From contig CP136063.1 in the NCBI GenBank assembly GCA_032622095.1, forward strand, positions 35,066,106-35,130,105: a DNA stretch of 64,000 nt. Direction: 5' to 3'. The translations under genes and the position numbers were made by a program. Below are positions 1 to 49,691 of this stretch, in pieces. The notes below the pieces were generated by a model. The model did not search any database. It was given only the letters and a program-made list of their open reading frames with translations, and was not told the origin of the DNA. Positions within the stretch are counted from its first letter, which is position 1; every line of letters begins with the position of its first letter. The DNA comes from Siphonodentalium dalli. Its lineage: Eukaryota > Mollusca > Scaphopoda > Gadilida > Siphonodentaliidae.

Positions 1-866
1 ATTAGGAGATAGTAAGTCCTAATTAGGAGATAGTAAGTCCTAATTAGGAGATAGTATGTCCTAATTAGGAGATAGTAAGTCCTAATTAGGAGACGGTAAG
101 TCCTAATTAGGAGATAGTATGTCCTAATTAGGAGATAGTAAGTCCTAATTAGGAGATAGTAAGTCCTAATTAGGAGATCGTATGTCCTAATTAGGAGATA
201 GTAAGTCCTAATTAGGAGATAGTAAGTCCTAATTAGGAGATAGTAAGTCCTAATTAGGAGATAGTATGTCCTAATTAGGAGATAGTAAGTCCTAATTAGG
301 AGATAGTAAGTCCTAATTAGGAGATAGTATGTCCTAATTAGGAGATAGTAAGTCCTAATTAGGAGATAGTAAGTCCTAATTAGGAGATAGTATGTCCTAA
401 TTAGGAGATAGTAAGTCCTAATTAGGAGATAGTAACTCCTAATTATGAGATAGCTATGTCCTAATTAGGAGATAGTAAGTCCTAATTAGGAGATAGTAAG
501 TCCTAATTAGGAGATAGTTAGTCCTAATTAGGAGATAGTAAGTCCTAATTAGGAGATAGTAAGTCCTAATTAGGAGATAGTATGTCCTAATTAGGAGATA
601 GTAACTCCTAATTAGGAGATAGCTATGTCCTAATTAGGAGATAGTAAGTCCTAATTAGTAGATAGTAAGTCCTAATTAGGAGATACTATCTCCTAATTAG
701 GAGATAGTAAGTCCTAATTAGGAGATAGTAAGTCCTAATTAGGAGATAGTATCTCCTAATTAGGACTTAGTATCTCCTAATTAGGACTTACTATCTCCTA
801 ATTAGGACATAGCTATCTCCTAATTAGGAGTTACTATCTCCTAATTAGGACTTACTATCTCCTAAT
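1..866 (+). repeat. Left subterminal array of TCCTAATTAGGA units
   Basis: About 41 head-to-tail units of 20-21 bp. Each has the perfect palindrome TCCTAATTAGGA and a short asymmetric spacer (GATAGTAAG, GATAGTATG, rarely GATAGCTATG). The spacer polarity is constant to about base 740, then flips to CTTACTATC towards the inner end. A higher-order pattern of three to four units is visible. The core contains TAATTA, a generic homeodomain-type motif. It could be a transposase-binding array, but that is inference. Confidence 0.95.
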
Positions 867-964
867 TAGGACATAGCAAGATCAGTCAGTTGCTGTATAG
901 GCACTTAAGTGACGTCTCGAGCGCGCTGTGGACAACTTGGTCTACTTCTAGCTATACGTAGATC
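867..964 (+). promoter_or_regulatory. Conserved inner border, probable integrase promoter/5' UTR
   Basis: About 100 bp of non-repetitive DNA between the array and the integrase ATG. Its blocks TAGCAAGAT, GTCAGTTG, GTGACGTC and CGAGCGCG recur, in inverted orientation and with scattered changes, next to the right-hand array at 48648-48734, again directly upstream of an ATG. GTGACGTC resembles a CRE/ATF half-palindrome. No clear TATA box is seen. A promoter role is inferred from position and from conservation at both ends. Confidence 0.5.
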
Positions 965-3900
965 ATGGACATGGATGAGGTGATCTGTTTTTACTTTAAA
1001 CTTGGTCTTAAATATAAGGATATCATAGATTGTTTAGCGACCATAAATGGCATTAGTATTTCCCTGCGTACTCTCAAACGTGTCTTGGATAGGAATATGT
1101 TATATCGCAGGAAAAACCGATGCAGCATCGACGAGGTGGCTTTGTTTCTTATTAGTCAGATAAATGGGTCTGGACAGCAACTCGGATACAAACTGATGCA
1201 TCTTAAGTGTGTACAGAATGGCATCGTGACAACACAGGAGACTATAAGGCTTCTCCTCCAAGTGATTGATCCTCGTGGTGTTGAGGCTCGGCTACATAAC
1301 AGATTAAGAAGACGTGCATACGTTAATGAGGGACCAAATTATTTATGGCATATGGACTCGTACGATAAATTGAAACCATACGGAATTTGTATCAACGGTT
1401 CCATCGATGGATTTTCTAGGTATATTATTTGGTTAGAAGCGGGCAAGACAAACAGCGACCCACGAGTGATAGCATACAACTTCATAAGTACAATAAAGAA
1501 CATTAATGGGTGTCCGTCTCGTATTAGAGCCGACCTGGGAACAGAGAACGGACATGTCGAACAAATGCAAAAGTTTTTAAGATGTGACCACAACGACGCA
1601 TTTGCCAATAGCTGTTTTATTTACGGATCCAGCAATCATAATCAGCGCATTGAGAGATGGTGGGGGAATTTGCGAAAGCAGAACTGTCAGTATTGGATGA
1701 ACCAATTCCAATACATGAAGGATTCTATGATGTTTAGTGGATCATTCTTGGACAAATCGTTGGTTCAATTCTGCTTCATGTGTATCATTCAGGTAAGCTA
1801 GCTATCACTATGAATTGAGTCAAAACCATCTATATGACATCTAGTGCGCGCGGTGCATGATGTTCACAATTTCCTTCCGCGCACAGAATAGTGGGGATAC
1901 TTTTTGTATTTCTCATCCGATCATCACCAAACTTCATATACAGGTCTGGCAAAATCGCAAATCCTCCAATAGTATCAGAAACCTACTACTCTTGGTCCTT
2001 TTGGCTATATATAGTCCGTAAACCTGACTTTTATTATCAGAGCATAGCGTCTAGCTCTGTTTGATTAGTTGGGTCCACCAACTAGGCTATATAGAGCTCG
2101 CACTTAGTTGTAAGCACAAATCCTTCAATAGTAGCAGAAATGTGTTACTCGTGGTCATTTAGGCTATAGTATATAGCTCCCAGAAGTACTACTTTGGCGT
2201 TTCATAACAATGCCACGTTTTCGATGAGTCGCAAGTCTCCGAGGCTCACAGGTGATGTCAATATTAAAATGTATGAATGCATTTTGGACCGAAAATTCTG
2301 TGTGAACGCTTCTGCGATTCACACAAATTTACGATCCAAAATGCATTCATATACATGATTAATATTCACATAACAAACATCCATTTCTTAAATGATAATC
2401 AACAGTGGAGATATTATTGATATATTGGGGGGCTATCTTTTTGTTATGTTTATTTGACCCACTTTATGTCAAATAGTTATATTGTGTGTTATAATTCAAG
2501 TGTTACATATATAAGATCATATAAACATCTAATTTGACACCAGTTCGATTACTAAGGTCAATTGAACTGCATGGGATTGTTGGATGACAATTCACATTTC
2601 CATATCTAATATATATTTGAGGAAAGTTAGGGTGTGTGTGTGGGGGGGGGGGGGGTTGAATTTCTAAAGAAATGTCCCCACAACGTATGTAATACAAACA
2701 AGGGTGTGTGTGTGAGGGTGTGGGGGTGAGGGGGTGTGTGTGTGGCCGCGATGGACTCGAAAACGGTTGGACCGATTTCGACGAAACTTGGTACGTAATA
2801 TCACACGGGAACCAACATAGGCCCATCCATTTGTTCGTGCCGCGTGACCTTCACCTTCAAAACGCATATCTCCGGATCCACTGAGCCGCAGTGCTAAATT
2901 GCCTTACAATTAACGCTCTTTATTAATCCCATATTCGGGTTGGTTAACCTAATAACGCTCTTTATCTGTATATGAGGCTGGCGTAACCCGTTCAGGTGCG
3001 ATAGTGAAATTATAACTGGTATACCGTATAACAAAATGAGTTCAATCAGTGAGCATACAATTATCAGGTATTTAAAGTAACATATATTGGATAAAATCAA
3101 GTAATCACTGGTCAATGAGAAATACCATAGTGGGGTGTATATGCGGGTAATGACTGTGTTAGAGTTCAATCGAGTGATCACTCGTCAATGAGAAAAGTCA
3201 TATTACTAAGACTATGTTTATAGGTGATCATTGTAAGGGTTATAGAAATTAAATATTGTAATCACTCGTCAATGAGAAATAAAAATTATTATAATTATCT
3301 CAGGTGGTGATTGCATTAGGGAATATCAAGTGCATCATGTTTGAATTACCAACATGGATGGGAATTTTATATATAAACATGAATTATAAGTGGTTTGGAT
3401 AAAAGTCAATCAAGGGATCAATAGTCAATGAGTTCACAAGATATGGTGCGGCTAAGTTAGACGTGGATTTATGCGTGTGGGCTTTGATAGTCAGATTTAC
3501 GCTTCGACTTCAGACATTCTTTTTGTTAATTTCCTCTGGATTTCATCGTCGACTCGACCGCAACATTCCTTCTGTATGCGAGCAAGGCTGTCGACGTTCT
3601 ACGATCTACACCCGATGGCCTTGGCTGATGGACAATTCGAAGCTATCTTTTAATAATTTCTTTTTGCTATAATGATTCATACAAGAAACCTCTATATATA
3701 TACACACGTACATTGTGGTCGATAGTTCAAAGATAATTAATGCATGATCACCAGCAATCGGCATCACGCCTATTGTCACATCAAAACTGTTTCCATTCAG
3801 CTGGGCCATTTGCGTGTTACATAGTATCCATTATACACTCGCATTCACATTATACCTGACATATGTCTTAAATAGGCCATTTTCATGCTACTTTCTGAAT

Positions 3901-6900
3901 TCGATGTCTGAAATCCTTGTCTAATTTCACTCTATACGGTGATATGACGAAACACATTCTCAATTTCTTATACTCAACTTTGATGTCCAGTAAATATTTT
4001 ATTTGGAAGTTTTATTTCGCTCGATCACACGCATGTGATTTTGCTAATTTATTTCCAGAAACGCTCGTCAACTTTCACTCGACAAGTTAATATGACGACT
4101 CACATTCGAAAGTTCCAATACTCAACTTTGATCTGCAATAAATATTTTATTTAGAAATTTTATTTCGCTAAATCACACGCATGTGATATTGCTAATCAGG
4201 TTTTTTGTTTTTAGTTATTTTTTGTTTTTGACACTGGCTTTTCTATATTAGATTATCACCGACCTCCTTAACACATGGAATTTGAAAATATCAGACCTGG
4301 CCGCATGCGTGTGAAATGGCATAAACACTGTTATATTAATATTGTGACTAGTATAACATTTGCATGCATAATTATGTAACTTAAAATTGTATATAACTGT
4401 CATTTGTATATATGCTCTCCTAAATTGAGGAGGTTAACAATAAACTCATTGTAAATTCAGACTGTTGACTGTAAGTTTACAGTGAGCATTTATTTCCCAC
4501 ACCTCGCTTAGTGCGAAGTCCTGTACATTTACGCTTCTCGGACTTTTGGCTAAGGTCAAGGTGTGGTATCTGTTCTTCTCAGATCAGCGCCTGATAGGGG
4601 ACTCCGATGTTGGTTTGAGGAGAATGGTGGACGGAAGAATCACCTTCTAAACATCATGGTCCACAGGCCGAAATTTTGGTTAAAGTCGTGTAACAGACGT
4701 TTGGTTTATTTACATTGAAAAATTGCTTAACTCGATTCTTTTGAAGCTTCATCCTCAAAGAGCGTGTGTATATGAGGCCTTCAACCTCTATCTCGGGACG
4801 GGTAGTTTGATGCGCTGATCAATTTCGTCACACTTATTTATTTTATAAGAAAAAAATCCATGATTGTCTCCATTTAGCTGAGATGGCTTCCAGAATGGCC
4901 GAAATTTTGGTTAAAGCCGTGTAACAGACGTTTGGTTTATTTACATTGAAATTGCCTAACTCGATTCTTTTGAAGCTTGATACCTCTATCTCGGGACGGG
5001 TAGTTTGATGCGGCGTGACCTTGACCTTTAAAATGACATTGAAGCTGTATCTCGGTATCTGCTGGGCCGATTTCCACCATTTTCGGGGTGTTGGTGTGAA
5101 AAAAACAACACAACGACTCTACCCCGTCAGGACGGGTACCCAGCTAGTCTCATATATATTTTGAAGACCTCTGTCTGTTTGTTTGTCTGTCATTTATACA
5201 AATCTACGATTCTCGACCGACCGGGACGAAACTTGGTATGTGTGTGTAGTTTTAACAGGCGGTGGACGTTGTCGTATTGGCGAGGCCGTGCGGCGCCCGC
5301 TTAGCGCATGCGCAGACGAGATATCGGAAACGGGTGGAGCTATAATCGACTTGAAATTTGGTATGTGAATGTATCTTGCCCCGGATACGAATTTTATCGG
5401 GTCGCCGAGCCCGTGCGACACCAGCTTCGCGCATGCGCAGACGAGATATCGGAAACGGGTAGAGCTATCGACTTGAAATTTGATTTTTGAATAGCCCGGA
5501 CAACGTCGAGCTGGGTAGAGCTATCGACTTGAAATTTGGTTTTTGAATAGCCCGGATAACGTCGGGCTCATCGGCTAGTCTCATATATATTTTGAAGACC
5601 TCTGTTTGTTTGTCTGTATGTTTGTTTGTCTGTCATTTATACAAATCTACGATTCTCGACCGATCGGGACGAAACTTGGTACGTGTGTGTAGTTTGACCA
5701 GGCGGTCGTCGTATTGGCGAGCCCGTGCAGCGCATGCGCAGACGAGATCTCGGAAACGGGTGGAGCTATCGACTTGAAATTTGCTATGTGAATGTATCTT
5801 GCCCCGGATACGAATTTTATCGGGTCGCCGAGCCCGTGCGACGCCAGCTTCGCGCATGCGCAGACCAGATCTCGGAAACGGATGGAGCTATTGACTTGAA
5901 ATTTGGTTTTTGAATAGCCCGGACAACGTCGGGCTCATCGGCTAGTCTATTATATATTTTGGGAAATCTTTCTGTCTGTTCGCGATGGACTCGAAAACGG
6001 CCGAGCCGATTTCGAAAACGGCCGAGCCGATTTCGATGAAACTTGGTATGTGTGGGTACTTTCGGCCGAGGAGTGGCATAGGCCTATTAATTTGTCCGTG
6101 CAACGTGACCTTGGGTTATTTCAAGGTCAAACGCCCAAATATCACGATATTTCGATGAAAATTAGTGTCTAGGTGTGTTGGCGATACTGGCGGATATATG
6201 CTTGTCTTCTCACCGCTTCAATGTTTTATTTATGTAACGCTGTATCTGCTAATCTGTTCTCAAACTATATGTATATGACATATTTAGAGTACGTTCACAC
6301 GGATATATAATTTGTTTTTATATTCGATCAATATTTTGTAATATTTTAGAGGGAGAAAAATAATCCTGGATGGGTGGATGGTGTGGTGCGGTGAAATCTC
6401 ACCCTCGGGGCAAGATATTTGAGCCAGACTCTCGGCAAGCCTCGTGTCTGGCTCAAATATTTTGCCCCTCGGGTGAGATTTCCCCGCCCACACCAATAAT
6501 CATAATATACTTATTCTAATGTTTTGCATTTTGACAGCTCGTATTGTGGGACTTTTATATTCAAACATTTATATAATGTGTTATCTAATGTTTTGATGCA
6601 TGCTTTCACAACTAAAATTTTATTTATCTTATTTTCAGAAGGAGCTGGATCAATTTTCTACACTATGGAATTCGCATCGCATTCGCCCGTCTAAACACTG
6701 CAATAGTCCTTTTGGAAAACCCATTATGATGTACTTGTGTCCAGAGTTACTCGGAACACACAACTATTTGCTTGATGTATCACAACAGAAAGTTGATGTC
6801 TGCTTACAGGAATGTAATACTCCTGTAGCAGCAACGTGTGACGAAACGGTATACGATTTATGTAATATACTGTTGGATGACAATGGACTAAGACAACCAG

Positions 6901-6968
6901 AAACCGCAGAAGAAGGTGTTCTTTTGTATCAGTTCCTCAGAAGGGAATTGTTGAGTGGAATTTCGTAA
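965..6968 (+). CDS. IS3-like DDE integrase/transposase (two exons)
   Basis: Transposase of the giant element, acting on DNA ends in the nucleus. Exon 1 is 965-1792 (276 codons) and ends at CAG|GTAAGC. Exon 2 is 6639-6968 (109 codons plus stop), after TTATTTTCAG. The join is phase 0 and gives 385 residues with no frameshift or stop. Residues 4-45 form an HTH-like segment (LGLKYKDIIDCL, then SLRTLKRVL). Residues 62-100 resemble the IS3 OrfB pre-core helical domain. The catalytic core has D131 (WHMDSYDK), D190 (IRADLGTEN) and E230 (NQRIERWW), with 39 residues between the last two. Exon 2 carries the family's C-terminal block (LWNSHRIRPS, MMYLCPELLG). The family matches metazoan 'integrase core domain' proteins (Pfam rva_4, from memory). 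M1 is the first ATG after the array; M3 is an alternative. The intact frame suggests recent activity. Confidence 0.88.
2265..2357. repeat. Imperfect palindrome in integrase intron
   Basis: The arm TATGAATGCATTTTGGA is repeated in inverted form (TCCAAAATGCATTCATA) around a 55-bp centre that also has inverted GTGTGAA/TTCACAC. It looks like a small foldback MITE. No clear target duplication was found. Confidence 0.6.
2625..2890. repeat. GT-rich tract plus dispersed repeat fragment
   Basis: GT/G-rich simple sequence (2630-2745) is followed by a segment beginning CGATGGACTCGAAAACGG. The same segment recurs at about 5981-6060, so it is a dispersed repeat. Glycine/proline-rich frames here come from the simple sequence and are not genes. 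Confidence 0.6.
3095..3440. repeat. Four spaced copies of a 'TCAATGAG' repeat
   Basis: The motif ATCACTCGTCAATGAGA or a close variant appears near 3103, 3175, 3260 and 3417, spaced about 70-160 bp, in otherwise AT-rich intron DNA. This is a degenerate tandem repeat with no coding signal. Confidence 0.55.
3880..4195. repeat. Two tandem copies of a unit of about 165 bp
   Basis: Two successive copies share TACTCAACTTTGAT, AATATTTTATTT and TCACACGCATGTGAT in the same order and spacing. They lie inside the integrase intron and are non-coding. Confidence 0.65.
4531..4607 (+). ncRNA. U2 snRNA 5'-end-like fragment (pseudogene or SINE head)
   Basis: The segment starts ACGCTTCTCGG and continues CTTTTGGCTAAGGTCAAG and GTATCTGTTCTT, closely following the first 45 or so bases of U2 snRNA, including stem-loop I. 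The branch-site recognition region expected next (GTAGTA) is changed to GTGGTA. After about base 4607 the similarity to U2 is lost. It is therefore a 5' fragment, either a U2 pseudogene or the head of a snRNA-derived SINE, not a working U2 gene. Confidence 0.65.
4665..5145. repeat. Direct repeats and dispersed-repeat tail
   Basis: A block beginning GGCCGAAATTTTGGTTAAAG occurs at about 4667 and again at 4898. Both copies continue through a shared CTCGGGACGGGTAGTTTGATG. The second copy runs into a tail ending GGACGGGTACCCAGCTAGT at about 5145, the kind of terminus seen on short dispersed retroelement tails in molluscs. Confidence 0.55.
5146..6070. repeat. Tandem array of dispersed-repeat 3' tails
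   Basis: Three head-to-tail segments each begin TATATATTTTGAAGACC or a variant, pass through a CTGTCTGTTTGT-rich stretch and GGGACGAAACTTGG, and end in AACGTCGGGCTCATCGGC followed by TAGTCT. Internal subunits (GCGCATGCGCAGACGAGAT, TGGAGCTATCGACTTGAAAT) are also repeated. All lie in the integrase intron. The short ORFs here on both strands are by-products of the repeat. Confidence 0.65.
6365..6497. repeat. Long palindrome upstream of integrase exon 2
   Basis: The arm GGTGAAATCTCACCC, then CGGGGCAAGATATTTGAGCC, is repeated almost perfectly in inverted form with a central loop of about 16 bp. The outer arms are GGTGTGG and CCACACC. It is a foldback MITE about 140 bp before the exon 2 acceptor and could form a strong hairpin in the pre-mRNA. 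Confidence 0.75.
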
Positions 6969-7160
6969 CCGTTATTTCGTAACGGTCATGTTATTGTCAC
7001 ATTATAGATATATAATGATATATAATGACATTCGTTTTATACCAAATTACACGACCGTACCCGGATCGAGCTACCTGTACAGTATATTATTCTGACCGTG
7101 CATGTATATACATGTAGGTTATTACCACTGCTGATACAATGCAATATATACATACACCTT
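6969..7160. other. Integrase 3' flank
   Basis: AT-rich sequence with no gene. No AATAAA lies close to the integrase stop. The first clear one is near 7529, about 560 bp downstream. Confidence 0.4.
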
Positions 7161-7279
7161 ATTACTACAGTGTAGTGATTTGGTCGTAGTATCACATCGA
7201 GTTGAAACAGATGAGATCGTGAATCTCACCTGTTTCAACGAGATGTGATGCGACGACCAGATCACTACATTGTAGTAAT
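7161..7279. mobile_element. Small palindromic MITE
   Basis: The arms ATTACTACAGTGTAGTGAT, then TGGTCGTAGTATCACATC, are repeated in inverted form to the right (GATGTGATGCGACGACCAGA, then ATCACTACATTGTAGTAAT), including inverted TTGAAACAG/CTGTTTCAA near the centre. It is 119 bp, non-coding, and probably folds back. The target duplication is not clear. Confidence 0.65.
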
Positions 7280-9287: not shown

Positions 9288-9469
9288 ATCAGGACAGAAG
9301 AATTCCAATATGTAGAGACAAAGTTGTTGGCGTCCCAGGAACAATTTATATAAAGACAACATTTTCGTTTCTGAAAACGTTTATTGTTATAGCGAATAAA
9401 TGTGGATCCACACAAAATCTGTCAAAACATATGATTAAATGAAAGTGTCAAGGACACTGCAGATTATCT

Positions 9470-9780: not shown

Positions 9781-9880
9781 AAAGACAATGTATTGTAATT
9801 TATTTAATGAGCCGTGCAGCAATTGGGTGTGATATTATGGAAGCGTATTGGTGCCACATCAAAATACAAATTTGGGTCAC

Positions 9881-10221
9881 AGTATGTCCTATTAGGAGAT
9901 ATAGTAACGTCCTAATTAGGAGATAGCTATGTCCTAATTATGAGATAGTAAGTCCTAATTAGGAGATACTAAGTCCTAATTAGGAGATAGATACTAAGTC
10001 CTAATTAGGAGATATCTCCTAATTAGGAGATATTATACTCTAATTAGGAGATAATATCTCCTAATTAGGACATAGTATCTCCTAATTAGGACTTACTATC
10101 TCCTAATTAGGAGATACTATCTCCTAATTAGGAGATATTATCTCCTAATTAGGACTTGGTATCTCCTAATTAGGACTTACTATCTCCTAATTTACTGTTA
10201 TTATCTCCTAATTAGGAGATA
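9881..10221 (+). repeat. Left TCCTAATTAGGA array of element A
   Basis: About 16 units of the 20-21 bp palindromic repeat. Polarity is inward (GATAGTAAG-type spacers) to about 10010, then flips, as in the left array of the giant element. Several spacers are shortened. Confidence 0.9.
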
Positions 10222-10571
10222 ACACAGATATAAAGAACTCAACATGTTCGTGGTCAGATTCATATCGTCTCCGGATCACTCGGCTGACGGTCGCATCGCT
10301 CCGTTCGTTCTCATGCCTTTCGCCCTTGTTTTCAAAATTAAAGGCTTAAAATGAGGGGTTGGGGAAAGGACATATTGGCCCTTTCGAGAATCCCGGAGTT
10401 AGCCACCCCATACCCCAATCCGCCGCTGTCATTTTGTTATATATATGACAAAGTTCTGTTACAGGGCCAGGTATGTGTACCATATAGTCAATCCGCGGCA
10501 TATAGTATATGTATATACCCGTGACTATCCCGAGATAATTTGATGACACCTGTTTATATGCCAAAATAATT

Positions 10572-10709
10572 TCATTTCATTTTCAGTTTACGCTTAACAG
10601 TACGTAGAGATATGTGCAAATTCCGTGTAAATTAGACAAACATTGGACGATGTATTTATAACTCAGACCCAAATTGAAGTAGAGTTGCAAGTTGCAATGC
10701 TTCATCCAT
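10572..10709 (-). pseudogene. Relic of the integrase N-terminal exon
   Basis: The minus strand encodes a start resembling the intact integrase (YFNLGLSYKYIVQCL against YFKLGLKYKDIIDCL). After a frame change it reads ISLRTVKRKL, matching ISLRTLKRVL in the intact gene. Compared with element B there is also a 7-bp insertion after the sixth codon. The DDE core is absent. A dead exon kept in a non-autonomous element. Confidence 0.7.
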
Positions 10710-10989
10710 TGCAACGAATGAATACAATAATAATGTTGAGTGAGTCTAAATGACCGCGAACCGTTTATTGGGAATTTGGTATTGGGGCCTGGGAGGATTT
10801 GGAAGGGCAGTATGTCCTCCCCACGACCCACTTAGGAATGATGTTGGGTGTTATAAATGGTGATATAACAATGAAAAATGATGGGAAAATGATCTAAACT
10901 TTTTTTTACTTCTTTTTCGCTTTTCCCCCTAATTCTGTATACTGTTTCTGTGTTTCACTTTTTCTTTTTCCCTCGAGTGGTCTTGGTGG

Positions 10990-11210
10990 CCCCCATGAGG
11001 GTGGTTTCCTGTCAGTCCTACCAGACGTATATCATACCCTATCAGGCCACTTCCAGTTACTGTTGCTACTGGTGTGACCTGTTACTGCAAAACCACTTCA
11101 AGTCAGCCTGCATTTGTACGTATGGTTATGATTGGTCCATGGACACAATGCACCGACTGGAAAGAGTTCACCTCGTGCGAGACTTGGCTGGGGATTAAAG
11201 GGTACTGAAC
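10990..11210 (+). other. Conserved segment shared by elements A and B
   Basis: About 220 bp here match 50740-50950 of element B closely, in inverted orientation. One frame is open in both (ending TWLGIKGY, with QCTDWKEFTS before it), but the differences include amino-acid changes in every frame, and an alternative frame is stopped in B. It could be a captured exon or structural DNA. Function unknown. Confidence 0.4.
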
Positions 11211-12130
11211 ACTAACTCCGTACACTAAAGTACTGTACACTAAAGTACACTCGTGTGCTCTACGAATGATGCAAACAACATTGCAATTATAATGGAAATT
11301 AATAAACGGCTAGAGTCATAAATAAATTTTCATTATAATTACCATGTTATTTTATTCGTTCATAAAGCACAGGAGTGTATTTTGCACTAATACATGTCTC
11401 AAATTCATTCATTTGTTGCATAAACTCTGTGAAGTATAAACGGAGATGGTCACACAAATGGTCGGATTTAGTGTACAGTCCCCCTTTAAAGGCACGTGAG
11501 ACCTTAGTTGTCGAAAATATTCATATTTGTTCTAATCACCGTAAACAGAAAAACATTAAAACGCATAGTTTCGTTCATATATACCATGACCATCACGTAA
11601 ACAGCATGTTATCACAAAGACCTACTATATGTTACCTAAGCAAGGGCCTGATTGTGTTACAGAAGACAGCACAATGCTACTGGCTAATCACACACAAATG
11701 GCATAAACGCTCTTTATTAGTTCCATATCAGGAATTCACCAACAAAGAACGCTCTTTATGTTTACCATCACAATATAAACAAACACCAGAAAAGTTACTT
11801 TTTATGCTTTTGTTTACATAACAATGGTCAAACATTAGACAATAACATACTGTTGATGCGATATTTCTTATTTGTATACGGACACAGTCTGTCTACATTT
11901 TGATGTTCTTTCTGTTTGTTGAGGTTTTTGACCGGTGGAAATATTTTCAAAGGATACCCACCGCCAAGGCCAACCGTACCTTTAAGCTATCCATGTCCAG
12001 CCAAGCCCGACAGAAAAATCAACCGCCACCCAAAGAGGGCACGTCCTTTCTCTGGGCGGCGACTCTGAGCAATGAATGGGAATGAAAATGACCGCTAACT
12101 GGTGTTGAGTTCTTTATATCTATATTATCT
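11211..12130. other. Internal DNA of element A
   Basis: Contains inverted TTTAATTTCCATTATAAT-type stretches near 11280-11345 and text shared with B at the inner right border (GACTCTGAGCAATGAATGGG). The ORFs here have no recognisable family and are not treated as genes. Confidence 0.45.
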
Positions 12131-12470
12131 AAGTCCTCTCCTAATTAGGACTTACTACCTCCTAATTAGGACTTACTATCTCCCAATTAGGAGTCACTAT
12201 CTCCTAATTAGGACTTACTATGTCCTAATTAGGAGATACTAAGTCCTAATTAGGACTTACTATCTCCTAACTAGGACTTACTATCTCCTAATTAAGACTT
12301 ACTATCTCCTAATTAAGACTTACTATCTCCTAATTAGGATTTACTATGTCCTAATTAGGACTTACTATCTCCTACTTAGGACTTACTATCTCCTAATTAG
12401 GACATAGCTATCTCATAATTAGGAGTTACTATCTCCTAATTAGGACTTACGATCTCCTAATTAGGACATA
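12131..12470 (-). repeat. Right TCCTAATTAGGA array of element A
   Basis: About 16 units with CTTACTATC-type spacers, the opposite polarity to the left array, leading to the terminal GGGACCCAAATTTTTATT, TGTGGCACC and CGCTTCCATA block. Confidence 0.9.
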
Positions 12471-12573
12471 CTGGGACCCAAATTTTTATTTTTATGTGGC
12501 ACCAATACGCTTCCATAGTTTTCAATATGATATGCTAGGGACTCACAGATGCTAGACAATGAGCCGTGCGATT

Positions 12574-17690: not shown

Positions 17691-17696
17691 TCTCAT

Positions 17697-23189: not shown

Positions 23190-23193
23190 TTAA

Positions 23194-29800: not shown

Positions 29801-32800
29801 ATGTGGGTGGTCTTATTCGTTTATTAATTTAGTCTTATATTACTGTTTTCTGACATTGAAATACCCACACCACGATTAAGCAAAGCCCATTTAGTAGGGC
29901 CTGATCACCTGTGACAGAAAAAGTAATTTCATTCCGTGTCCGAAGGGTTTTTTCCAGATTTTTTCATGGAATCTTATAATCTGATGACTGATGTGATATC
30001 TTGCGCTATTTTATATTTACTGGAAATCTTCGGATTATCGTCCTTATCGCAGACTATTTCCAACATGTCAACTACATAATGAGATCCGAGGCAAATACCG
30101 CAGGATAATTTGGCTGAGGTGATCCGAATGCAAAAGGGGACGTTTTCAACTAGGCATCGAGATGAACAATCATATGAAATTTGGTGATAAATGGATGATA
30201 AACGTGACCTGTACTATGTGTCCAGGCACGTGGTAACTAATAGTGGCTCATGTCACAAATATTACAGTGTAAATACCAGTTCATATGGGTCTTACCAATT
30301 GCAACGTCCTGTACCATTGGCTCCACACTAGAATTATCGGATGTCCGTGTTGTCATTGTCTGATGCTTCATGTGAGACTTTGATGGCAATAATGGCATTG
30401 GTGGCAAGTCTGGCAGTGTATACTCATCATCATCCATCCTGGCAGGACTATCCCCTGTCGAGCTAACCTTAGATTCACTGCTGAGGTAAAATGTTAATAT
30501 CCCAGTTTTAAATGTGTCATAGCAATCACTCACAGTGACGTTAGGCGGAACTTTCTGCTCTTTGAAATCCAACAGATCAAAATCCATTTGCCCAACTTTG
30601 CCCATCAAAGATTCCCCACTGGGGAAGAACAGCATAGTCGCCATTTCAATTATGTCTGAACGATTTGTATCTCTTTTAACATCAAAATTTCTCGTCCCAC
30701 CACCTTTCCGCTTTTTTACCTGCCTGTGGTTGTGTATCCATCCTAGTTCAATTTTTCTGGTCACTTTTCGAGGTCTACTTTTACTTTTTCCTACGGAATC
30801 AGCTGTTGATTTCGGAGAAGAGTTTGTGGAAGATGTCACAGATTCAGCAGCTGCATTAACTTTCTGTTTCAGCTGCTGAAATAAGAGTCCTCTTTTAGAT
30901 ACACTTTTTTTGTCCTTTTGGGAACACCACTTTCTGAGAGCGACTCTATCGCCCAGCTTTGGAATGTAGGATGACAGTGTGTCATCTTCAATTTGGATGA
31001 TGGTATCCATGGATATCTGAAATGAATATGCCAGTGAATATAGATTTGGCCCAAATGCATGTCCCAACATTGAACAAGACCATGCATGTTGTTAAGAAGT
31101 GCTTTATAAAATTTGCTTCCGATTAAAAGCCCACAACTACTTGGGGAAGTCAGAATTTTCATATTAAGGCCCAAATGAATGAAATTGTCAATGCCAATGT
31201 AGCTTATCTTGAGACACAGTTGGATGATTCTCAGCGTCACTTATGTTATACTGAACCCATTTTTGAAGAATAAAAGATATTACTGCTTGAAAACTGAACA
31301 CTGATATCAACAATTGTCTAAGTGTCCAGATTTTCAACAGTGTATATAATCATAATAAAATAGCAGATCAGTGGATTGGTGGTGTTTTAAAATTTGATGC
31401 CAAAACTGATGTCTGTCACGTACGTTACATGCAAAAACACACTTTTTTCGCAAACTATTCGTGTCATTCATTGTTTCTGTGATTTCTGACAACTATATGT
31501 CATTTCCAATCAACAACTAGTGACACAGGCTCACTTTCTTTTGTTTTCAAGAAATAATTTATCTGCAGAGCCTCAAATTGTTCTGCAGTGACTCTCAATT
31601 TGTTGTCACGTACGTTTACATGAAATTGTCACGTACGTTACATCTTCAAGTCATGGACAATGTTTTCATGATAGCTTTATAATGCATTTATTTCAAAAAT
31701 TATTTTATTACCCCATTTATGTTAAATTGTAATACAAATAAAAGTGTCAATGACACTGTAGCTCAACTTTGTAAAGAAGGTATTTTTTTTGTGATGAGCA
31801 ATGAATAGAGAGATTAATGAAAGTGTCAATGACACTGTAGCTCAACTTGGAAAGGGAATAATTTAATGTATTACAGTCAATGAAGCGATTAGGAATGTGG
31901 AAAGTTGAATGCCTAATACTAGTTTATAGACATGAAGAGAAAAGTTAAATCCAAGATGGCTGCTGGCGGTCATGTTTTCGGCCGAATGACCCCAAAATGA
32001 GTCGTTCCCATCTACATGTCATCGTTAACATCAATTAAAAATTTTATGACGATCAGACTAAAGGTACGACCTGTAGCCCATGCTAAAAAATTTAGTCATA
32101 CAAAGAGTAAAATCCAAGATGGCTGCTGGTTGCCTTGTTTTATGGCCGATTGACCCAAAAATGACTCGTTCCCATCTACATGGCATTGTTAACATCCATG
32201 ACAAATTTTATGATGATCAGACTAAAGGTATGACCTGCAGACCGTGCAAAAGAATTTAGTCATACAAACAGTAAAATCCAAGATGGCTGCTGGCGGCCAT
32301 GTTATTTGGCCAAATGACCCCAAAATTAATCGTTCCCATCTACATGTCAATATTAACATCCATGACAAATTTCATGATGATCAGACGAACAGTACGACAT
32401 GTAGCCCGTGCTAATGGATTAAATTTTGAAATCCAAGATGGCCACTGGCGGCCATGTTTTTGTCCAAATGACCCCAAAATAACACGTTCCCATCTACATT
32501 CCAATTTCAACAGCCATGACAAATTTTATGATGATCAGACTAAAGGTACGACCTGTAGCCCATGCTAAAGGATTTAGTCATACAAAGAGTAAAATCCAAG
32601 ATGGCTGCTGGCTGCCATATTTTTGGCCGAATGACCCCAAAATGACTCGTTCCCATCTACATGTCATTATTAACATTCTTGACAAATTTTATGACGATCA
32701 GACTAAAAGTAGGACCTGTAGTCCGTGCTAAAGGATTTAGTCATACAAAGAGTAAAATTCAAGATGGCTGCTGGCGACCATGTTTTTTAGCCGAATGACC

Positions 32801-35800
32801 CCAAAATTACTCGTTCACATCTACAGGTCATTGTTAATATGCATGACAAATTTTATGATGATCAGACTAAAGGTAGGACCTGCAGCTCGTGCTAAAGAAT
32901 TTAGTCATACAAACAGTAAAATCCAAGATGGCTGCTGGCGGCCATGTTTTTTGGCCAAATGACCCCAAAATTACTCGTTCCAATCTACATGTCAATATTA
33001 TCATCCATGACAAATTTCATGATGATCAGACGAACAGTACGGCCTGTGGCCCCTGCTAATGGATTAAATTTTTTAATCCAAGATGGCCGCTGGCGGCCAT
33101 GTTTTTTGTCTGAATGAGCCCAAAATAACTCGTTCCCATCTACATTCCAATTTGAACAGCCATGACAAATTTGATGATGATCAGACTAAAGGTACGACCT
33201 GTAGCCAGTGCTAAAGGATTTAGTCATACAAAGAGTAAAATCCAAGATGGCCACTGGCGGCCATGTTTTTTGTCTGAATGACCCCAAAATAACTCTTTCC
33301 CATCTACATTCCAATTTCAACAGCCATGACAAATTTTATCATAATAACTCGTTCCCATCTGCATGTCAATATTAACATCCATGACAAATTTCATGATGAT
33401 CAGACAAATAGTACGGCCTGTGGCCCGTGCTAATGGATTGAATTTTGAAATCCAATATGGCCACTGGCGGCCATGTTTTTTTCCGAATGACCCAAAAATG
33501 ATCATTCTGGTCTAAATGTTGATGTCAACAGCTATGACAAATTTCATAATGATCCGACCAAAGGTACGACCTGTAGCCTGCATTGTTGACGCCTTACGTA
33601 CACACGCACACACGCACACATGGACGACAAAGCCATGGCAATAGCTTAAACTTTACAAAGTAAAGTTGAGCTAAAAATGATTATCCAGAGAATGATAAAT
33701 CCAAATTCTTTCAAATGGTATAAAAGTAAATAGACACTCTCTTTCATACCATATGTAAAATAATGTAAGTATAATATGAAAGTGTCAATGACACTGTAGC
33801 TCAACTTAGGTAGGGGAATAATTTAATGGTTGACAGTAAATGGAGGAATAGGAAAGGTGCTAATTGAAATGTCTAAGTAAGACTAGATGTACGTGTCAAT
33901 ATAAACATTCATGACAGGTTTCATAATGATCGGATCAGGGATGTGGTGATTAATGGTGTGCCAAAGGATTTATTGATGCAAAGAGTAAATTCTAAAATGG
34001 CCACCGGCAGCCATTTTTTTTTCCGAATTACCCCAAAATGACCTGTTCCCATCTACAGCCTTTACAAATCTCATAATGATCTGATCAAAGGTACGACCTG
34101 TAGCCTGTGCCAATGGATTTAGTCATGCAAAGAGTAAAATCCAAGATGGCTGCTGGCAGCCATGTTTTTCAGCTGAACGACCCCAAAATCTACATGTCAT
34201 TGTTAACATCCATGACAAATTTCATGAAGTTCCGACCAAAGCTACGACCTGTAGCCCGCACCAAAGGATATAGTCATGCAAAGAGTAAAATCCAATATGG
34301 CTGCTGGCGGACATGTTTTTAGCCAAACGACCCCAAATCACTCGTTTCCATCTACATGTTAATATTAACATCCATGATAAATATCATGACGAACAGTACG
34401 ACCTGTAGCCATGTTTTTTGGCCGTATGACCCCCAAAATGACTCGTTCCCATCTACATGTCAATATCAACATTCATGAGAAATTTCATCAAGATCAGACC
34501 AAAGGTACGACCTGTAGCCCGCGCCAAAGGATTTAGTCATGCAAAGAGTAAAATCCAAGATGGCTGCTGGACGACCCCAAAATCACTCGTTCCCATCTAC
34601 ATGTCAATATTAACATCCATGACAAATTTCATGATGATCAGACGAACAGTACGACCTGTAGCCTGCGCCAATGGATTGAATTTTGAAATCCAAGATGGCC
34701 GCCAGCGGCCATGTTTTTTGGCCGAATGACCCCAAAATGACTCGTTCCCATCTAAATGTCAATGTCAACATTCATGACAAATTTCATAAAGATCAGACCA
34801 AATGTACGACCTGTAGCCCGCGCCAAAGGAAATTGTTGACGGACACACGCACGACGGACGCCAAACCATGGCAATAGCTCAAACTTACAAAGTAAGTTGA
34901 GCTAATAAGGGGACATTCGGGACTGTGTGTGCCTAACAACGTTTGATTTCATTAGGAGAATCCAGCTCGTGATGATGGCAATCCGAGTGTTTTGCTTGTC
35001 ACATGACCGATGGTCACATGACCAAAACGTCAATCAAAATGTCGGAATAGTTAGCGGCGACCGCTATTCGAAATTAAATCAAGAGTTCTGATCAATCGAC
35101 AAGGAATAATGGCTGGTAGACCTGTGGGCAGAAAATGAGTGCCTGTATAATAATCGCAACAAGTGGGCGGCAGCTTTGGAAAGGTCTATTACGTAAATTT
35201 ACGGCTATTGCTCATTACCTCAATATATTATACTATTTAATTTATTATTAATAAATATTAGTCTTTAGAAATACATATTAATATATATATCTTATTGGAA
35301 CTTAGTAGCATGGCTTACGCCATCTAAGTTCCATCCTGGTTCTCAATGCTATGAGCGAGTAGATTTTCAATGAAAGTGTCAATGACACTGTAGCTCAACT
35401 TAGGTAGGGAAATAATTTAATGGTTTACAGTAAATGGAGAAATAGGAAAGATGCTGATTGAAATGTCTTACCTGTGCCAAAGGATTTAGTCATGCAAAGA
35501 GTAAAATCCAAGAAGGCTGCTGGTGGCCATGTTTTTTGGCAGAATGACCCCATAAGAACTCGTTCCCATCTACATGTCATTATTAACATCCATGACAAAT
35601 TTTATGAAGATCCGACCAAAGCTACAACCTGTAGCCTGCACCAAAGGATTTAGTCATGCAAAGAGTAAAATCCAAGATGGTTGCTGGTGGCCATGTTTTT
35701 TGGCCGAACGACCCCAAAATGACTCGTTCCGATCTACATGTCAATATTAACATCCATGACAAATTTCATGAAGATCCTACAAAAGGTACGACCTGCAGCC

Positions 35801-38800
35801 CGCACCAAAGGATTTAGTCAAGCAAAGAGTAAAATCCAAGATGGCTGCTGGTGGCCATGTTTTTTGGCTGAACGACCCCAAAATGATTCGTTCCCATCTA
35901 CATGTCAATGTCAACAGCCATGACAAATTTCATGAAGATCCTACAAAAGGTACGACCTGCAGCCCGCACCAAAGGATTTAGTCATGCAAAGAGTAAAATC
36001 CAAGATGGCTGCTGGTGGCCATGTTTTTTGGCTGAACGACCCCAAAATGACTCGTTCCCATCTACATGTCATTGTTAACATCCATGACAAATTTCATGAA
36101 GTTCCGATCAAAGCTACGACCTGTAGCCCGCGGGAAAGGATTTAGTCATGCAAAGAGTAAAATCTAAGATGGCTGCCGGCGGCCATGTTTTTTGGACAAA
36201 TGACCCCAAAATTACTCGTTCCCATCTACATGTCAATATTAACATCCATGACAAATTTAATGATGATCAGACTCAAGGTACGACCTGTGGCCTGTGATAA
36301 TGGATTAAATTTTGAAATCAAAGATGGCTGCTGGTGGCCATGTTTTTTGTCCGAATGACCCCAAAATGACTCGTTCCCATCTACATTCTAATTTCAACAG
36401 CCATTACAAATTTCATGATGATCAGACTAAAGGTACGACCTGTAGCCCGTGCTAAAGGATTTAGTCATACAAAGAGTAATATCCAAGATGGCTGCTGGCG
36501 GCCATGTTTTTTGCCCGAATAACCCAAAAAAGACTCGTTCCCATCTACATGTCATTGTTAACATCCATGACAAATTTTATGATGATCTGACCAAAGGTAC
36601 GACCTGTAGCCCGTGTCAAAGGATTTAGTCATGCAAAGAGTAAAATCTAAGATGGCTGCCGGCGGCCATGTTTTTTGGCCAAATGACCCCAAAATTACTC
36701 GTTCCCATCTACATGTCAATATTAACATCCATGACAAATTTCATGACAATAAGACGAACGGTACGGCCTGTAGCCCGTGGTAATGGATTGAATTTTGAAA
36801 TCCAAGATGGCCACTGGCGGCCATGTTTTTTTTCCGAATGACCCCAAAATGACTCGTTCCCATCTACATGTCAATGTCAACATCCATGACAAATTTCATA
36901 ATAATCGGATCAAAGGTACGAACTGTAGCCCGTGCTAAAGGAAATTGTTGACGCATCACGCACACACACACACGCACACACGGACGACGGATACCAAGCC
37001 ATGGCAATAGCTCAAACTTTACAAAGTAAAGTTGAGCTAAAAATGAATCATGTCTGGGTAAGGGATGTTGTGTAGATAGAAACACACTTTTTCGAAATGC
37101 TAACCAACTATTAGGCAGTTTCTGGAACTATGGGTAACTGAACAGTAAGAAGTAACTGGCCTCTGCATTTAAATAAATCATAAAACATGTTTGTTTCACT
37201 ATGTCTGGAATAATTGATTTCTGGAGATTGCACAAATCTACCTATACCCACTAGAACTAATGTATATAGCCAATCTGCTGGTAAACAATGGAGTTGTAGA
37301 TGCTAAATCATGTACATTAAGTGCTTCTGTTAGTAGAAGCATCACAGCATAGAACAGAACGGGGAAATTGATGTGTAGTTGCAATAAATTAAAATGTAAC
37401 GTACGTGACGACGTCACATAACTTATAGAGTATGTAAGTGTTTTTACCTACCACAAGAACACTTTTGATAAACCGTCATAATTTTTCAATCCATTTACTA
37501 CATACAATAATGCAACTGTTATATACTTTTACATAGTTTTCGTGTAATAAGAAAACTAAACAGTTCTTTTATTTTAAGTTAAACTCATAAGGCCTAAAAA
37601 AAAATATACGTTTGTTTCCGCTAACGAGCTGGAAAAAATTAGGGTAGGTAGGTAGGCTTAACTTTTTTTTTTTTGTTAACTTTTTTTTTCAGTATCTTTA
37701 AAAATAACTGTATAATACTTGCACTTGCAATAACCCAAACTATGCACTTCTTAGCCCCAATCAGGTTAACCCAGATGACAGAGGAACTAGAAACTCCAAT
37801 TCAATCTTACATATGCTTTAATATTTACATATATACTAGTCTATATACTAATATAGTCTTTGATAATCCTAATATTTCCCATATGGTCTGGCGACAACTG
37901 GAGTCAGTCCAGCACCACTGCACTGTTCACATATTGGAGTGACCGTCTTGTACCGATCTTTTAATGATGGGTTCACAACACCACCTTCTCCGCATTCAGT
38001 GAAGGATCTAGGTATTTTTTGGGGACACCTGTTTTTGGGCAATGATATGCCGAATGCATAACCTGAAGGCCTGAGCGGAGGATTGTTTGGGAGGGGTGAC
38101 CCCCTGATGATGGTGGAGGTTCTCCCCCTGGAAATTTTTTGAAAATCCATTGCATTTAGAGCTAATCTAAGGCACTTTGAGTCAGTATTTTGAATTTTAC
38201 TGAGAGGTCAATTTGATCAAGTTTCTCAAGCATAACTTTGGAATTTTTTGATATATGTATGGATTGGAAATGCCTATAAGTTATAGTCAGATATCTTTTG
38301 GTTCAATGGATTATGCTTATCCTGCTTGAAATGAGACTTACCATTATCAGTCTAATTCATATAATAGACTATTTTATAAAATTCAAGTGAGACACATACC
38401 GTACAAAATATACTACATGTAGTACAGACAAATGTCTATTAAGGTAGTAATTACTATATATGGTACTAATTTTTATGTTAATTTTTCATTTGGTATTATG
38501 AGATCCCACCTGATAACCAGGTTGATTTGATCAAATTGTTAATGTTCCTGTGCTGTAATTGATTGAAATACTGAAGTCTGAACGCTGAATGATAAATAAC
38601 CTGAACTCAAATTATTTGAAGTTTTCACAGATGAAAGCTGGATAAAGCCAAACATACTTTACAGTATGATTCCAACTGTTAAACTTAAATCTTTTTGTAA
38701 ACTTAAATTTCTTATGTCAATATATATAAATATATAAATGTTTTGCATCTTGTTATGATATGAATTGGGACCTAAATTAAAAATATAAAATAAAAATAAA

Positions 38801-41800
38801 AATAAAACAAAATAAAAAAATGTTTTGTTTTTTTTTGGTCCAATTTTTTGTTGTTTTTGCAATGGCAATAAAAAGTTTAGTTTAAAATAGGGTCGGTCGG
38901 GTTAGCGAAACAAACGTCTTTTTTTTTAGGCCTAAGGTGTATTGTGTCATATCAAGAAATTTATGCACTGTTCTTGGAAGTAGTATCTTTGATTATAGTT
39001 TTGACTACTCAAACAATATAAAATGAGATAAAACTATGGCCTAGTGTGTATTAGTAACTATTTTTTCATAATACTAATTTAGAATTAGATATTCACAAGT
39101 ATTTGAGACTTTTTGTCCCCTGTGTCCCACATGCATAACAAGAAATATACTGGCAAACTGCAATAAAAATAATTTTTCAAACAAATCAGTGTCTTCACAA
39201 ACAAATTAAAAAAAAATCACAATCTTTAAATAGGACAAATTCAAATTTTTACCGTTCTGATTGAAATTTTTTGAGAATCACCCACTTACATTTCAGATAC
39301 AAACAGATATCAACATACCGGACAACGGACCGTGGTCCATGACAATATTGTCTTAATATGCACAGGAAATCCAAGATGGCTGCCAAGGCGGCCATTTTGT
39401 TTTATGGAACGTGACCAAAGGGGGACGTTCTCATCTAGGCAGCGAGATGAACAAGCATAGAAATTTGGTGATGATTGGATGATAAATGTGACCTGTAGCA
39501 TGCATGTGCAGAAGGAATTACTGATGAAAAGCACTGGAAAACAAAATGGCTGACAGTGGCCATTTTATTTTGCTGAACAACCCCAAAATGACTCATGCAA
39601 ACATCCTCAAAGACAAAATTAAAGATAAACAAACAGTTTCCATTTTTTTTTGGACAAAAACCAACAACACAATCAACATAATAATGTCATCTAGAATGGC
39701 CTTGACCGATGATACATAATAGGATTTAATGTCAATGATGACAAACTTACTTTTTGCTCTGTCATTTCTCTGATCACCTTCTCGGGTATCTCCCGACTTC
39801 TTAAATATTTCTTTAGATCATCCTCCATGTCAGTCTTTTTAAAACAAAGAATATACAGATATAATTAGTTTAATACAATCAATAAATTATCACAAAATGA
39901 TCACATTCAACCGCAAACTAATTTTTTTTGTGGACAGGTACATGAATGTAGATTTCTTTTATTTTTATCCTTTATTATTCCGAAACTATATAGTGTTTTC
40001 AGTGATGAAATGAGTGAAGTGACCATAGTTTATAAATATATTCAAAACAATCAATGATCGCCGATAAAATGATCAACAAGAGTGATTTGACACAGTTGAA
40101 AAACACCCAAACATTAGGCGCCAAATGTTCTTTAACATCCAGTCTATAAATTTGTGTTTTAAGATGATATAATGTTTTTTAATTATTTAAATACATGCTC
40201 ATGTGGCCCCTAGTTGTCCGATAATTGTCAGTTAAAGCCCCATAACAACTTTGTGAAGGTTAAATTTTCGAATTAAATATTACTATGTACTGAGTATTAT
40301 TGTATATGAGAACCCCCCCCCCCCCACCCCCCCCCCAAACATACATACATGGCCATTCTTTGGTCGAAACATGATAAAAACAGGAAATATTAAATACGAG
40401 TTTACTAAGTTGATTTCGAAGCTTGTTTCAATCAAAGCTGTAATACCTCTGTGTGACGACAGGAACTTTATCTATAATATTACGTCAGTTCTGGTTGATG
40501 CTATTTATAGACGCTAAATTCCGGAAACGTAAAATAAAAAAATTTCAGTTTGAGGCGGTGGATTATTTTGGTTTATAGCGATGTTTAGACAACACGAATC
40601 CAACCTAGCGGGTTCAGGTATGTCCTTCCACATATTTTTACATATAAAACCACCAGCGTATCGAACCTAGCTGCTTTTAAAATAAAAAATTGACCCTCAC
40701 AAAGTAGTTGTGGGGCTTTAATGATTTCATTCCGAAAAAAAAGGGAAAACCAACCAACCAACCAGATGACTTTGAATTTGTGAAATGTCGTATATTTGTT
40801 TTATCTGGTCAATTAAGCAATGCATCATTGCAATTGGATGTGATAGGCTAGGACAAGCAGACAAACAGTCTGAAACAGATATCACCATACCGAACAATGG
40901 TGAATGTACCATGACAATATCTTCTTAACATGACAAAAAGCCTGAAAAGGGGATGTTCTCATCTAGGCTACATGGAAGGAAAATCCAACATGGCTGCCAT
41001 GGTCTCATCTAGGGCCTAAACAAATAATACCTTTGTTTCCGCTAACGAGCTAAAAAAAAATTAGGGTAGGTAGGTAGGCTTAACTTTTTTTGTTTGTTAA
41101 CTTTTTTTTTTTCAGTATCTTTAAAAATAACTGTATAATACTTGTCAATAACCCAAACTATGCACTTCTTAGCCCCAATCAGGTTAACCCAGATGACAGA
41201 GGAACTAAAAACTCCAATTCAATCTTACATATGCTTTAATATTTACATATATACTAGTCTATATACTAAGAATAAAGATAGTCTTTGATAATCCTAATAT
41301 TTCCTATATGGTCTGGCGACAACTGGAGTCAGTCCAGCACCACTGCACTGTTCACATATTGGAGTGACCGTCTTGTACCGATCTCTTAAGGATGGCTTCA
41401 CAACACCACCTTCTCCGCATTCAGTGAAGGATCTAGGTATTTTTTGGGGACACCTGTTTTTGGGCAATGATATGCCGAAGGCATAACCTGAAGGCCTGAT
41501 CGGAGGAATGTTTGGGAAGGGTGACCCCCTGATGATGGTGGGGGTTCTTCCCCTGGAAAAATTTTGAAAATCCATTGCATTTAGATCTAATCTAAGGCTC
41601 TTTGAGTCAGTATTTTGAATTTTACAGAGAGGTCAATTTTATCAAGTTTCTCAAGCATAACTTTGGAACTTTTTATATACATGTATGTATGGATTGGAAA
41701 TGCTTATAAGTTATTGTCAGATATCTTTTGGTTCTATGGATTATGCTTATCGGAAGCCTTATCCTGCTTGAAATTAGACTTGCCATCATCACTCTAATTC

Positions 41801-48647: not shown

Positions 48648-48734
48648 GTCGATGTGTACCGGTGCCGAATAACACGTGGCGCGCACTCGAACGTCCCCGA
48701 AGAAGTGTTCACCACAACTGACTAAAATCTTGCT
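48648..48734 (-). promoter_or_regulatory. Conserved inner border of right terminus, probable promoter of HECT-type gene
   Basis: Read on the minus strand, the block GGACTTAGCAAGAT, GTCAGTTG, CACTT, GGGACGTTCGAG, TGCGCGCC parallels 867-964 upstream of the integrase. It ends just before the ATG at 48647. It contains CACGTG. The shared promoter role is inferred. Confidence 0.5.
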
Positions 48735-49646
48735 AAGTCCTAATTAGGAGATAGTATCTCCTAATTAGGAGATAGTATCTCCTAATTAGGAGATACTTAT
48801 CACCTAATTAGGAGATACTTACCTCCTAATTAGGAGATACTATCTCCTAATTAGGAGATACTAAGTCCTAATTAGGAGATAATATCTCCTAATTAGGACT
48901 TAGCATCTCCTAATTAGGACTTACTATCTCCTAATTAGGACTTACTATCTCCTAATTAGGACATAGCTATCTCCTAATTAGGAGTTACTATCTCCTAATT
49001 AGGACTTACTATCTCCTAATTAGGACTTACTATCTCCTAATTAGGACATAGCTATCTCCTAATTATGAGTTACTATCTCCTAATTAGGACTTACTATCTC
49101 CTAATTAGGACTTACTATCTCCTAATTAGGACATAGCTATATCCTAATTAGGACTTACTATCTCCTAATTAGGACTTACTATATCCTAATTATGAGTTAC
49201 TATCTCCTAATTAGGACTTACTATCTCCTAATTAGGACTTACTATCTCCTAATTAGGACATATCTATCTCCTAATTAGGAGTTACTATCTCCTAATTAGG
49301 ACTTACTATCTCCTAATTAGGACTTACTATCTCCTAATTAGGACTTACTATCTCCTAATTAGGACATAGCTATATCCTAATTAGGACTTACTATCTCCTA
49401 ATTAGGACTTACTATCTCCTAATTAGGACTTACTATCTCCTAATTAGGACTTACTATCTCCTAATTAGGACTTACTATCTCCTAATTAGGACATAGCTAT
49501 GTCCTAATTAGGAGTTACTATCTCCTAATTAGGACTTACTATCTCCTAATTAGGACTTACTATCTCCTAATTAGGACATAGCTATCTCCTAATTAGGAGT
49601 TACTATCTCCTAATTAGGACTTACTATCTCCTAATTAGGACATACT
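48735..49646 (-). repeat. Right subterminal array of TCCTAATTAGGA units
   Basis: About 43 units. The inner 150 bp carry mixed polarity, then CTTACTATC-type spacers continue to the end, with a higher-order cycle of three or four units marked by GACATAGCTATC and GAGTTACTATC. It is followed by the terminal block 49647-49691. Confidence 0.95.
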
Positions 49647-49691
49647 GGGACCCAAATTTTTATTTTTATGTGGCACCAATACGCTTCCATA

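Follow-up and report, generated by a model that had tools for sequence, protein, structure and literature searches.

The stretch of Siphonodentalium dalli DNA analysed here, 64,000 nucleotides long and hereafter called the window (assembly GCA_032622095.1, contig CP136063.1, positions 35,066,106-35,130,105, or G000:C3:35066106-35130105), harbors a giant element bounded by two long arrays of palindromes and encoding, in convergent orientation, an IS3-like transposase and a HECT-like protein. By its features this element, referred to below as the giant, is a DNA transposon of the IS3EU superfamily, and the assembly searched for its relatives amounts to 2.23 Gb in 9 contigs.

Extent and ends of the giant

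The borders seen in the window are as follows.

1-880, plus strand: inner part of the left terminal inverted repeat, an array of 21-bp period made of the palindrome TCCTAATTAGGA and a 9-10-bp spacer (tandem-repeat search and palindrome count)
48738-49691, minus strand: right terminal inverted repeat, an array of 43 palindromes and the terminus CGCTTCCATA
49692-49697, unstranded: right copy of the target site duplication (TSD), CAACAT (flank comparison)

The left terminus (22 bp) lies at C3:35065270, that is at window coordinate -835, 835 bases outside the window, and the element spans C3:35065270-35115796, or 50,527 bp. CAACAT stands directly before this terminus and directly after the right one (window position 49691) as a 6-bp TSD, a match between flanks that chance would give about once in 4,096. 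An earlier, sequence-only reading of the window had claimed that the two outer arrays pair with each other as the ends of one element, and had set beforehand as a check that a terminus preceded by the matching TSD should lie left of base 1; this is indeed what was found. Its right end at 49691 and its size of at least 49.7 kb hold, while its left boundary at base 1 has to be moved to -835.

With up to 2 substitutions allowed, matches to TCCTAATTAGGA number 79 in the left array and 43 in the right one, spaced by 21 bp in 71 of 78 intervals on the left and 33 of 42 on the right, and by 22 bp otherwise. The arrays are of opposite polarity, as that reading had it, the commonest spacer being GATAGTAAG on the left and CTTACTATC on the right, and this polarity together with CAACAT on both sides leads us to conclude that the two outer arrays close one element. 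The terminal 50 bp or so of the two ends are inverted copies with small differences. As for the inverse homology claimed for the unique DNA just inside the arrays, it stands over about 20 bp only (TAGCAAGAT..AGTCAGTTG, judged by eye) and falls beyond, blastn between these two regions giving no significant alignment. The short relatives at 9836-12517 and 49814-52153 share another inner border, which agrees with the earlier claim that their inner borders differ from those of the giant.

The sequence TATGGAAGCG occurs 5 times in the window for 0.06 expected. The termini TATGGAAGCG..CGCTTCCATA have the TA..TA form of IS3EU elements (TAYGG..CCRTA), the duplicated CAACAT has their 6-bp length, and the transposase is a DDE enzyme of the IS3-like integrase group (PF24764 rva_4; invariant D131, D190 and E230). 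It is on these features that the assignment to IS3EU is made, and a cut-and-paste mode of movement would follow from the class of the transposase. The long inverted repeats built of tandem repeats (79 and 43 units) also make the giant a foldback-type element, which is a structural description and not a lineage.

The transposase gene

965-1792, plus strand: exon 1, 276 codons, with N-terminal helical modules and the D, D, E residues, followed by the donor GTAAGC at position 1793 (PF24764 match, alignment, model)
6639-6968, plus strand: exon 2, 109 codons and stop, acceptor TTTTCAG (tblastn with the C-termini of homologues)

The sequence-only reading placed the only intact integrase, thought to be IS3-like, at one inner border; exon 1, intact and located at the left inner border, matches PF24764 rva_4 with an E-value of 1.3e-29, and exon 2 was located with the C-terminus of animal homologues. 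Both exons are open and flank a 4.85-kb intron with GT/AG splice sites, and the predicted protein of 385 amino acids (aa) compares with 382-390 aa for full-length animal homologues (7 of the 8 sequences examined, the other, P0002, being a 303-aa reading frame). All 40 sequences compared have D131, D190 and E230. Pfam scans of exon 1 returned only rva_4 and rve, and its N-terminus is predicted to be helical, the HHCC zinc motif not having been searched as such. The predicted model has a mean predicted local distance difference test score (pLDDT) of 75.6 and a predicted template modelling (TM) score of 0.47, the N-terminal helical modules reaching mostly a pLDDT of 84-95 and the core being less certain; Foldseek places TnsB, IstA and retroviral integrases first among its PDB matches, at low TM-scores. 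Outside this genome, 1 of 10 pattern matches in bacterial contigs gave a weak 29% fragment, in a contig of a metagenome-assembled genome (L077), and 0 of 26 in viral contigs were confirmed. A repeat located in the intron (5281-6113) is also present at two family-C loci and, by eye, in a family-B interior (loci L043, L044 and L070).

Array plan across IS3EU families

Twelve ends or loci were compared and sorted by sequence into 8 families, the letters of which are our own, the giant belonging to family A. They follow a common plan, in which the terminus is followed by an array of 20-22-bp period and then by the transposase. Indeed, such a tandem array precedes the transposase in all 12, and a TAYGG terminus lies beside it in 11, none being convincing for L050; in families D, E, F, H and I the terminus is recognised by motif only, the TSD evidence coming from families A-C. 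The period is constant over the 8 families and the palindrome is family-specific: TCCTAATTAGGA in family A, CCTGATATATCAGG in B, GGCGTTTAAACGCC in C, GTTAGCTAAC in D, TCGTGGCCACGA in F, TCGAGATCTCGA in H, and an interrupted inverted repeat, GGGAGA..TCTCCC, in I. When 9 arrays, one from each family except A, which supplied both of its ends, were compared with 300 column-shuffled controls, perfect 10-bp palindromes were found at nearly every unit in 7 arrays, representing 6 of the 8 families, above all 300 controls; in family D, some 21 units include 16 with a perfect palindrome. Left and right arrays are of unequal length, and copies also vary in this respect. Just inside its two arrays, family B has DNA that is similar over about 45 bp and contains the motif CCAAT.

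The HECT-like gene and its pairing with the transposase

23807-24000, minus strand: last exon, with PVAHTCGC and the stop codon (profile positions 566-630, independent E-value (iE) 1.5e-23)
24637-24935, minus strand: C-lobe exon, acceptor uncertain (profile iE 8.7e-39)
28769-28900, minus strand: exon with WxCxxC..CxxC (splice sites and phase; no homologue match over the exon)
30296-31016, minus strand: exon of the N-terminal region (profile iE 4.5e-55)
39751-39828, minus strand: possible first coding exon, 26 codons (in-phase splice; homology undetected on its own)

These five exons, convergent with the transposase, were placed by splice sites and homology, the first and third by splice phase only. 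By resemblance, PVAHTCGC is presumably the catalytic-Cys region of HECT, and we regard WxCxxC..CxxC as zinc-ribbon-like. The joined exons match 61 proteins of 263-786 aa, many with PF00632 HECT, the named ones coming from fish, molluscs, beetles and others; used alone as query, the 283-aa HECT exon found one protein, probably owing to a length limit. A complete HECT domain, with N-lobe and C-lobe, is not present in the giant: its PF00632 score of 21.9 bits is under the cut-off of 23.9, only the C-lobe was found, and a profile search of the six frames of the giant did not detect the N-lobe (profile positions 213-455). The gene copy of the giant is therefore probably incomplete. Elsewhere in the genome, four HECT matches, nearly identical to one another, each span positions 73-627 of 633 in a single open frame, and three of them adjoin family-B transposases.

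To examine the association of both genes, we used the 38 of 139 transposase matches that score at least 100 bits, and 72 HECT matches, both lists being lower bounds. For 13 of the 15 top-scoring transposase matches, a HECT match lies within 40 kb, always convergent (chance per site at most 0.0026), and the 25 transposase matches of at least 540 bp add no others to these 13. As no such neighbour accompanies the ten weaker of these 25, we assign the pairing to the lineage nearest the query. Partial transposase and HECT matches cluster at C5:259.1-261.2 Mb, perhaps as a graveyard of such elements.

Large relatives in families B and C

C4:26576442-26604659: family-B copy, 28,218 bp, TSD GTTTTA twice
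C7:158584711-158613337: family-B copy, 28,627 bp, TSD CATTGC twice
C8:155464449-155505324: family-C copy, 40,876 bp, TSD GTATCA twice
C7:164195858-164235351: family-C copy, 39,494 bp, TSD AAAGGG twice

The interiors of the two family-B copies share stretches of 5.9, 4.5 and 2.4 kb (12.8 kb) with 99.4, 99.2 and 99.1% identity and differ over a stretch of 3-4 kb. For family C, four 500-bp probes drawn from the C8 copy, 4, 12, 28 and 34 kb away from one of its ends, are all present in order in the C7 copy (96, 100, 100 and 98% identity), the last one being split there by about 1.9 kb. The probe at 28 kb falls in a dispersed repeat that occupies equivalent positions in the two copies and is 100% identical between them over 500 bp. 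The separate sites, perfect TSDs and collinear interiors indicate that units of 28 and 40 kb have transposed, with at least one nested repeat carried along. In the L067 stretch, no terminus was found.

Short family-A elements and repeats inside the giant

9836-12517, plus strand: short family-A element of 2,682 bp nested in the giant, with TGATAT/GTTTTC as flanks and thus without target duplication (end and flank comparison)
27028-36942, unstranded: minisatellite of about 164 bp in three blocks (27028-28638, 31943-34830, 35474-36942), with further occurrences elsewhere in the genome, including near family-A ends L019 and L052

The 22-bp family-A terminus has 416 matches in the genome with at most one mismatch (209 forward, 207 reverse). 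In the sequence examined, 46 distinct family-A ends were identified, of which 34 form 17 pairs, 11 with a perfect 6-bp TSD and one with a single-base difference. Most pairs are short (0.4-4.4 kb), one 8.9-kb member being flanked by ATATTG on both sides, and short copies devoid of a transposase match still have arrays and termini. For L055, the right array is present and the terminus was not found. At C1:219841024-219847697, three right ends lie within 5 kb and all have AGGGAC as flank (L026-L029), perhaps by local tandem duplication around one insertion.

By eye, the 12-base word AATGAGCCGTGC is present on both sides of the nested element, which suggests recombination or a local rearrangement. 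Within this element, at 10589-10690, a decayed antisense N-terminus of an IS3EU transposase (best tblastn E-values 3e-4 and 6e-4) hints at the origin of the short elements. Another short element, 49814-52153, has a perfect GTTTCT duplication and lies 122 bp from the right end of the giant. Further right, long arrays of C2H2 zinc-finger type with 84-bp tandem units occupy 52514-54276 and 61135-62538 on opposite strands, Pfam having covered the first 206 aa.

Discussion

Matching ends with a TSD, an open two-exon transposase, a convergent HECT-like gene, a plan common to the families and the movement of 28- and 40-kb relatives lead us to consider, with a probability of about 0.93, that the element of the window is a single DNA transposon of the IS3EU superfamily, 50,527 bp long. 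The very large size put forward by the sequence-only reading is borne out, and it is a size class common to the 28- and 40-kb relatives of the same genome. Beyond that reading, our analysis brings the HECT-like second gene, the array rule across families and the finding that part of the length consists of repeats present elsewhere in the genome.

Several observations weigh against this reading or against its extension to the other families. The giant is single-copy, the next transposase among the scored genome matches being 58% identical, and no second site for the full 50.5 kb was found, so that the element may have been shorter at insertion than it is now. Its interior holds dispersed repeats, minisatellites, duplicated segments and a nested element devoid of TSD (repeats judged against 223 kb of genome sequence rich in family A), and its HECT-like gene lacks a detectable N-lobe. 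In family A, 5 of the 17 pairs have no matching duplication, including the nested element and the 11.5-kb L053/L054 pair (C3:211617343-211628806) with the unlike flanks CATTTG/TTGCAC, and 12 of the 46 ends have no partner found. For two of the four family-B transposase copies the far end was not located among the 100 of 301 places listed. Family E has no clear palindrome and only 3-5 repeat units, and both E and I fail the perfect-palindrome comparison with shuffled controls. As for the gene pairing, 12 of the 25 long transposase matches (540 bp or more) lack a HECT match over 40 kb around them, 13 shorter ones include four with HECT, two convergent and two not, and some HECT matches, for instance C9:71882193, have no transposase match alongside.

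That a smaller IS3EU element, perhaps of 10-20 kb, was inserted and then grew in place to 50.5 kb, the 50 kb having never moved as a unit, is only just short of an even chance. The repeats and nested element just mentioned, the lack of a second copy of the transposase, and the insertions of about 2 kb or more by which family-B and family-C copies also differ all speak for such growth. However, the copies of these two families moved at about 28 and 40 kb, and the dispersed repeat conserved at the same place in both 40-kb copies implies that nested repeats can hitch-hike. We tentatively advance, at somewhat less than even odds, the broader view that the IS3EU elements of animals form a class of their own, hitherto unrecognised, of giant cut-and-paste transposons (28-50 kb). 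In this view, the transposase of each family would read its own palindrome, which recurs tens of times at about two helical turns per site, and would thereby load as a multimer that pairs very distant ends; a HECT ligase would be regularly present as a functional second gene, and elements would tolerate nested insertions and carry them along.

With regard to the arrays, we lean towards a role in transposition, in which the N-terminal domains of the transposase bind the palindromes, a multimer loads on one face of the DNA and pairs the distant ends, and the DDE domain cuts and joins. The N-terminal helix-turn-helix domains would bind the palindromes, probably as dimers, and since the sites repeat about every two turns they would lie on one face of the DNA, so that many protomers could load side by side at each end and help to bring together ends separated by tens of kilobases. 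The DDE domain would then cut at TAYGG/CCRTA and join the ends to a target staggered by 6 bp. As each family has its own palindrome, a transposase would move the full elements of its family and the shorter copies with the same ends, and nested insertions would lengthen an element and be carried along in later jumps. A rather doubtful alternative is that the arrays serve neither transposase binding nor end pairing and are operators or promoters of the two inner genes, or passively grown satellites. The left array indeed ends about 85 bp from the start codon of the transposase, the CCAAT-containing DNA is shared by both inner borders of family B, and array length is variable; yet none of the 8 families departs from the 20-22-bp period, whereas their repeat sequences differ, and short copies devoid of a transposase match keep their arrays and termini.

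It is very improbable that the outer arrays belong to two different short elements flanking 50 kb by chance: family-A ends are common (416 matches) and two short elements lie in the window, but both outer flanks are identical and the transposase at the inner border and convergent HECT-like gene are arranged as in the 28- and 40-kb relatives. Two unrelated solo ends were likewise considered and are ruled out by the matching CAACAT. A Polinton/Maverick or other virus-like element, which the large size, integrase-like enzyme and 6-bp TSD might evoke, has a practically negligible chance given IS3EU-like termini and transposase; a non-exhaustive Pfam scan of 16 distinct open reading frames of the element gave no polymerase B or capsid family.

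Moving 28-40 kb, and perhaps 50 kb, is large for a DDE transposon of an animal, and the paired copies make end recognition testable. A constant period with differing palindromes within one genome offers a natural experiment on the joint change of transposases and binding sites, and the hundreds of places that bear these ends shape the genome. Most of the nearest relatives are accompanied by a convergent ubiquitin-ligase-like gene, which suggests that the element manipulates the protein turnover of its host, to be compared with the kinase and dioxygenase genes of fungal relatives; that the HECT-like protein opposes a host factor or sets transposase levels is a guess, and an unlikely one.

Comparison with known systems

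Our literature search found no paper dealing with IS3EU and HECT together and, among the matches listed, no description of palindromic or tandem-repeat array ends for IS3EU and no relevant transposon-borne HECT, Repbase not being searchable. Among giant eukaryotic elements, Teratorn has a herpesvirus as fusion partner. Giant transposons have been reviewed (PMC6431247), and in the accounts available in PMC10175614 and PMC12134995 Teratorn (180 kb) and the Starships (up to about 700 kb, with cargo) resemble the giant by their size; they differ from it in that Teratorn is a piggyBac fusion and Starships use a tyrosine recombinase. The foldback-like Galileo (PMC4168063) and Tetris (PMC4079207) likewise have long inverted repeats that can hold tandem repeats, but Galileo as presented there belongs to the P superfamily, with single-copy repeats of about 140 bp, a 7-8-bp TSD and no phased palindromes. 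Tn7-like and CRISPR-associated transposons (CAST) have several 22-bp TnsB sites per end, and TnsB is among the nearest folds here; these elements are bacterial with, in the portion of PMC9371665 that deals with them, four uneven sites per end, whereas the arrays reported here are longer, palindromic and evenly spaced. The fungal Styx has an IS3EU-type DDD/E transposase, was searched with 6-bp TSDs and carries further genes, but its terminal inverted repeats are of 36 bp, its length figure covers copies below 13 kb, and the word palindrome is absent from the text of PMC10853768.

The closest likeness is with IS3EU elements as outlined in PMC10045372 and PMC12730594, namely TAYGG..CCRTA termini, a 6-bp TSD and an IS3-related DDE transposase. 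In the account of fungal TET-bearing members (PMC12730594), a second gene, encoding an alpha-kinase, is oriented opposite to the transposase, as is the HECT-like gene here. Unlike the elements so described, the giant has a length of 50.5 kb, long ends of phased palindrome arrays and a HECT-like second gene, sizes and ends in Repbase lying outside this comparison. Novelty relative to Repbase being set aside, the giant is, by its features, an IS3EU element with palindrome-array ends and a HECT-like gene as new traits.

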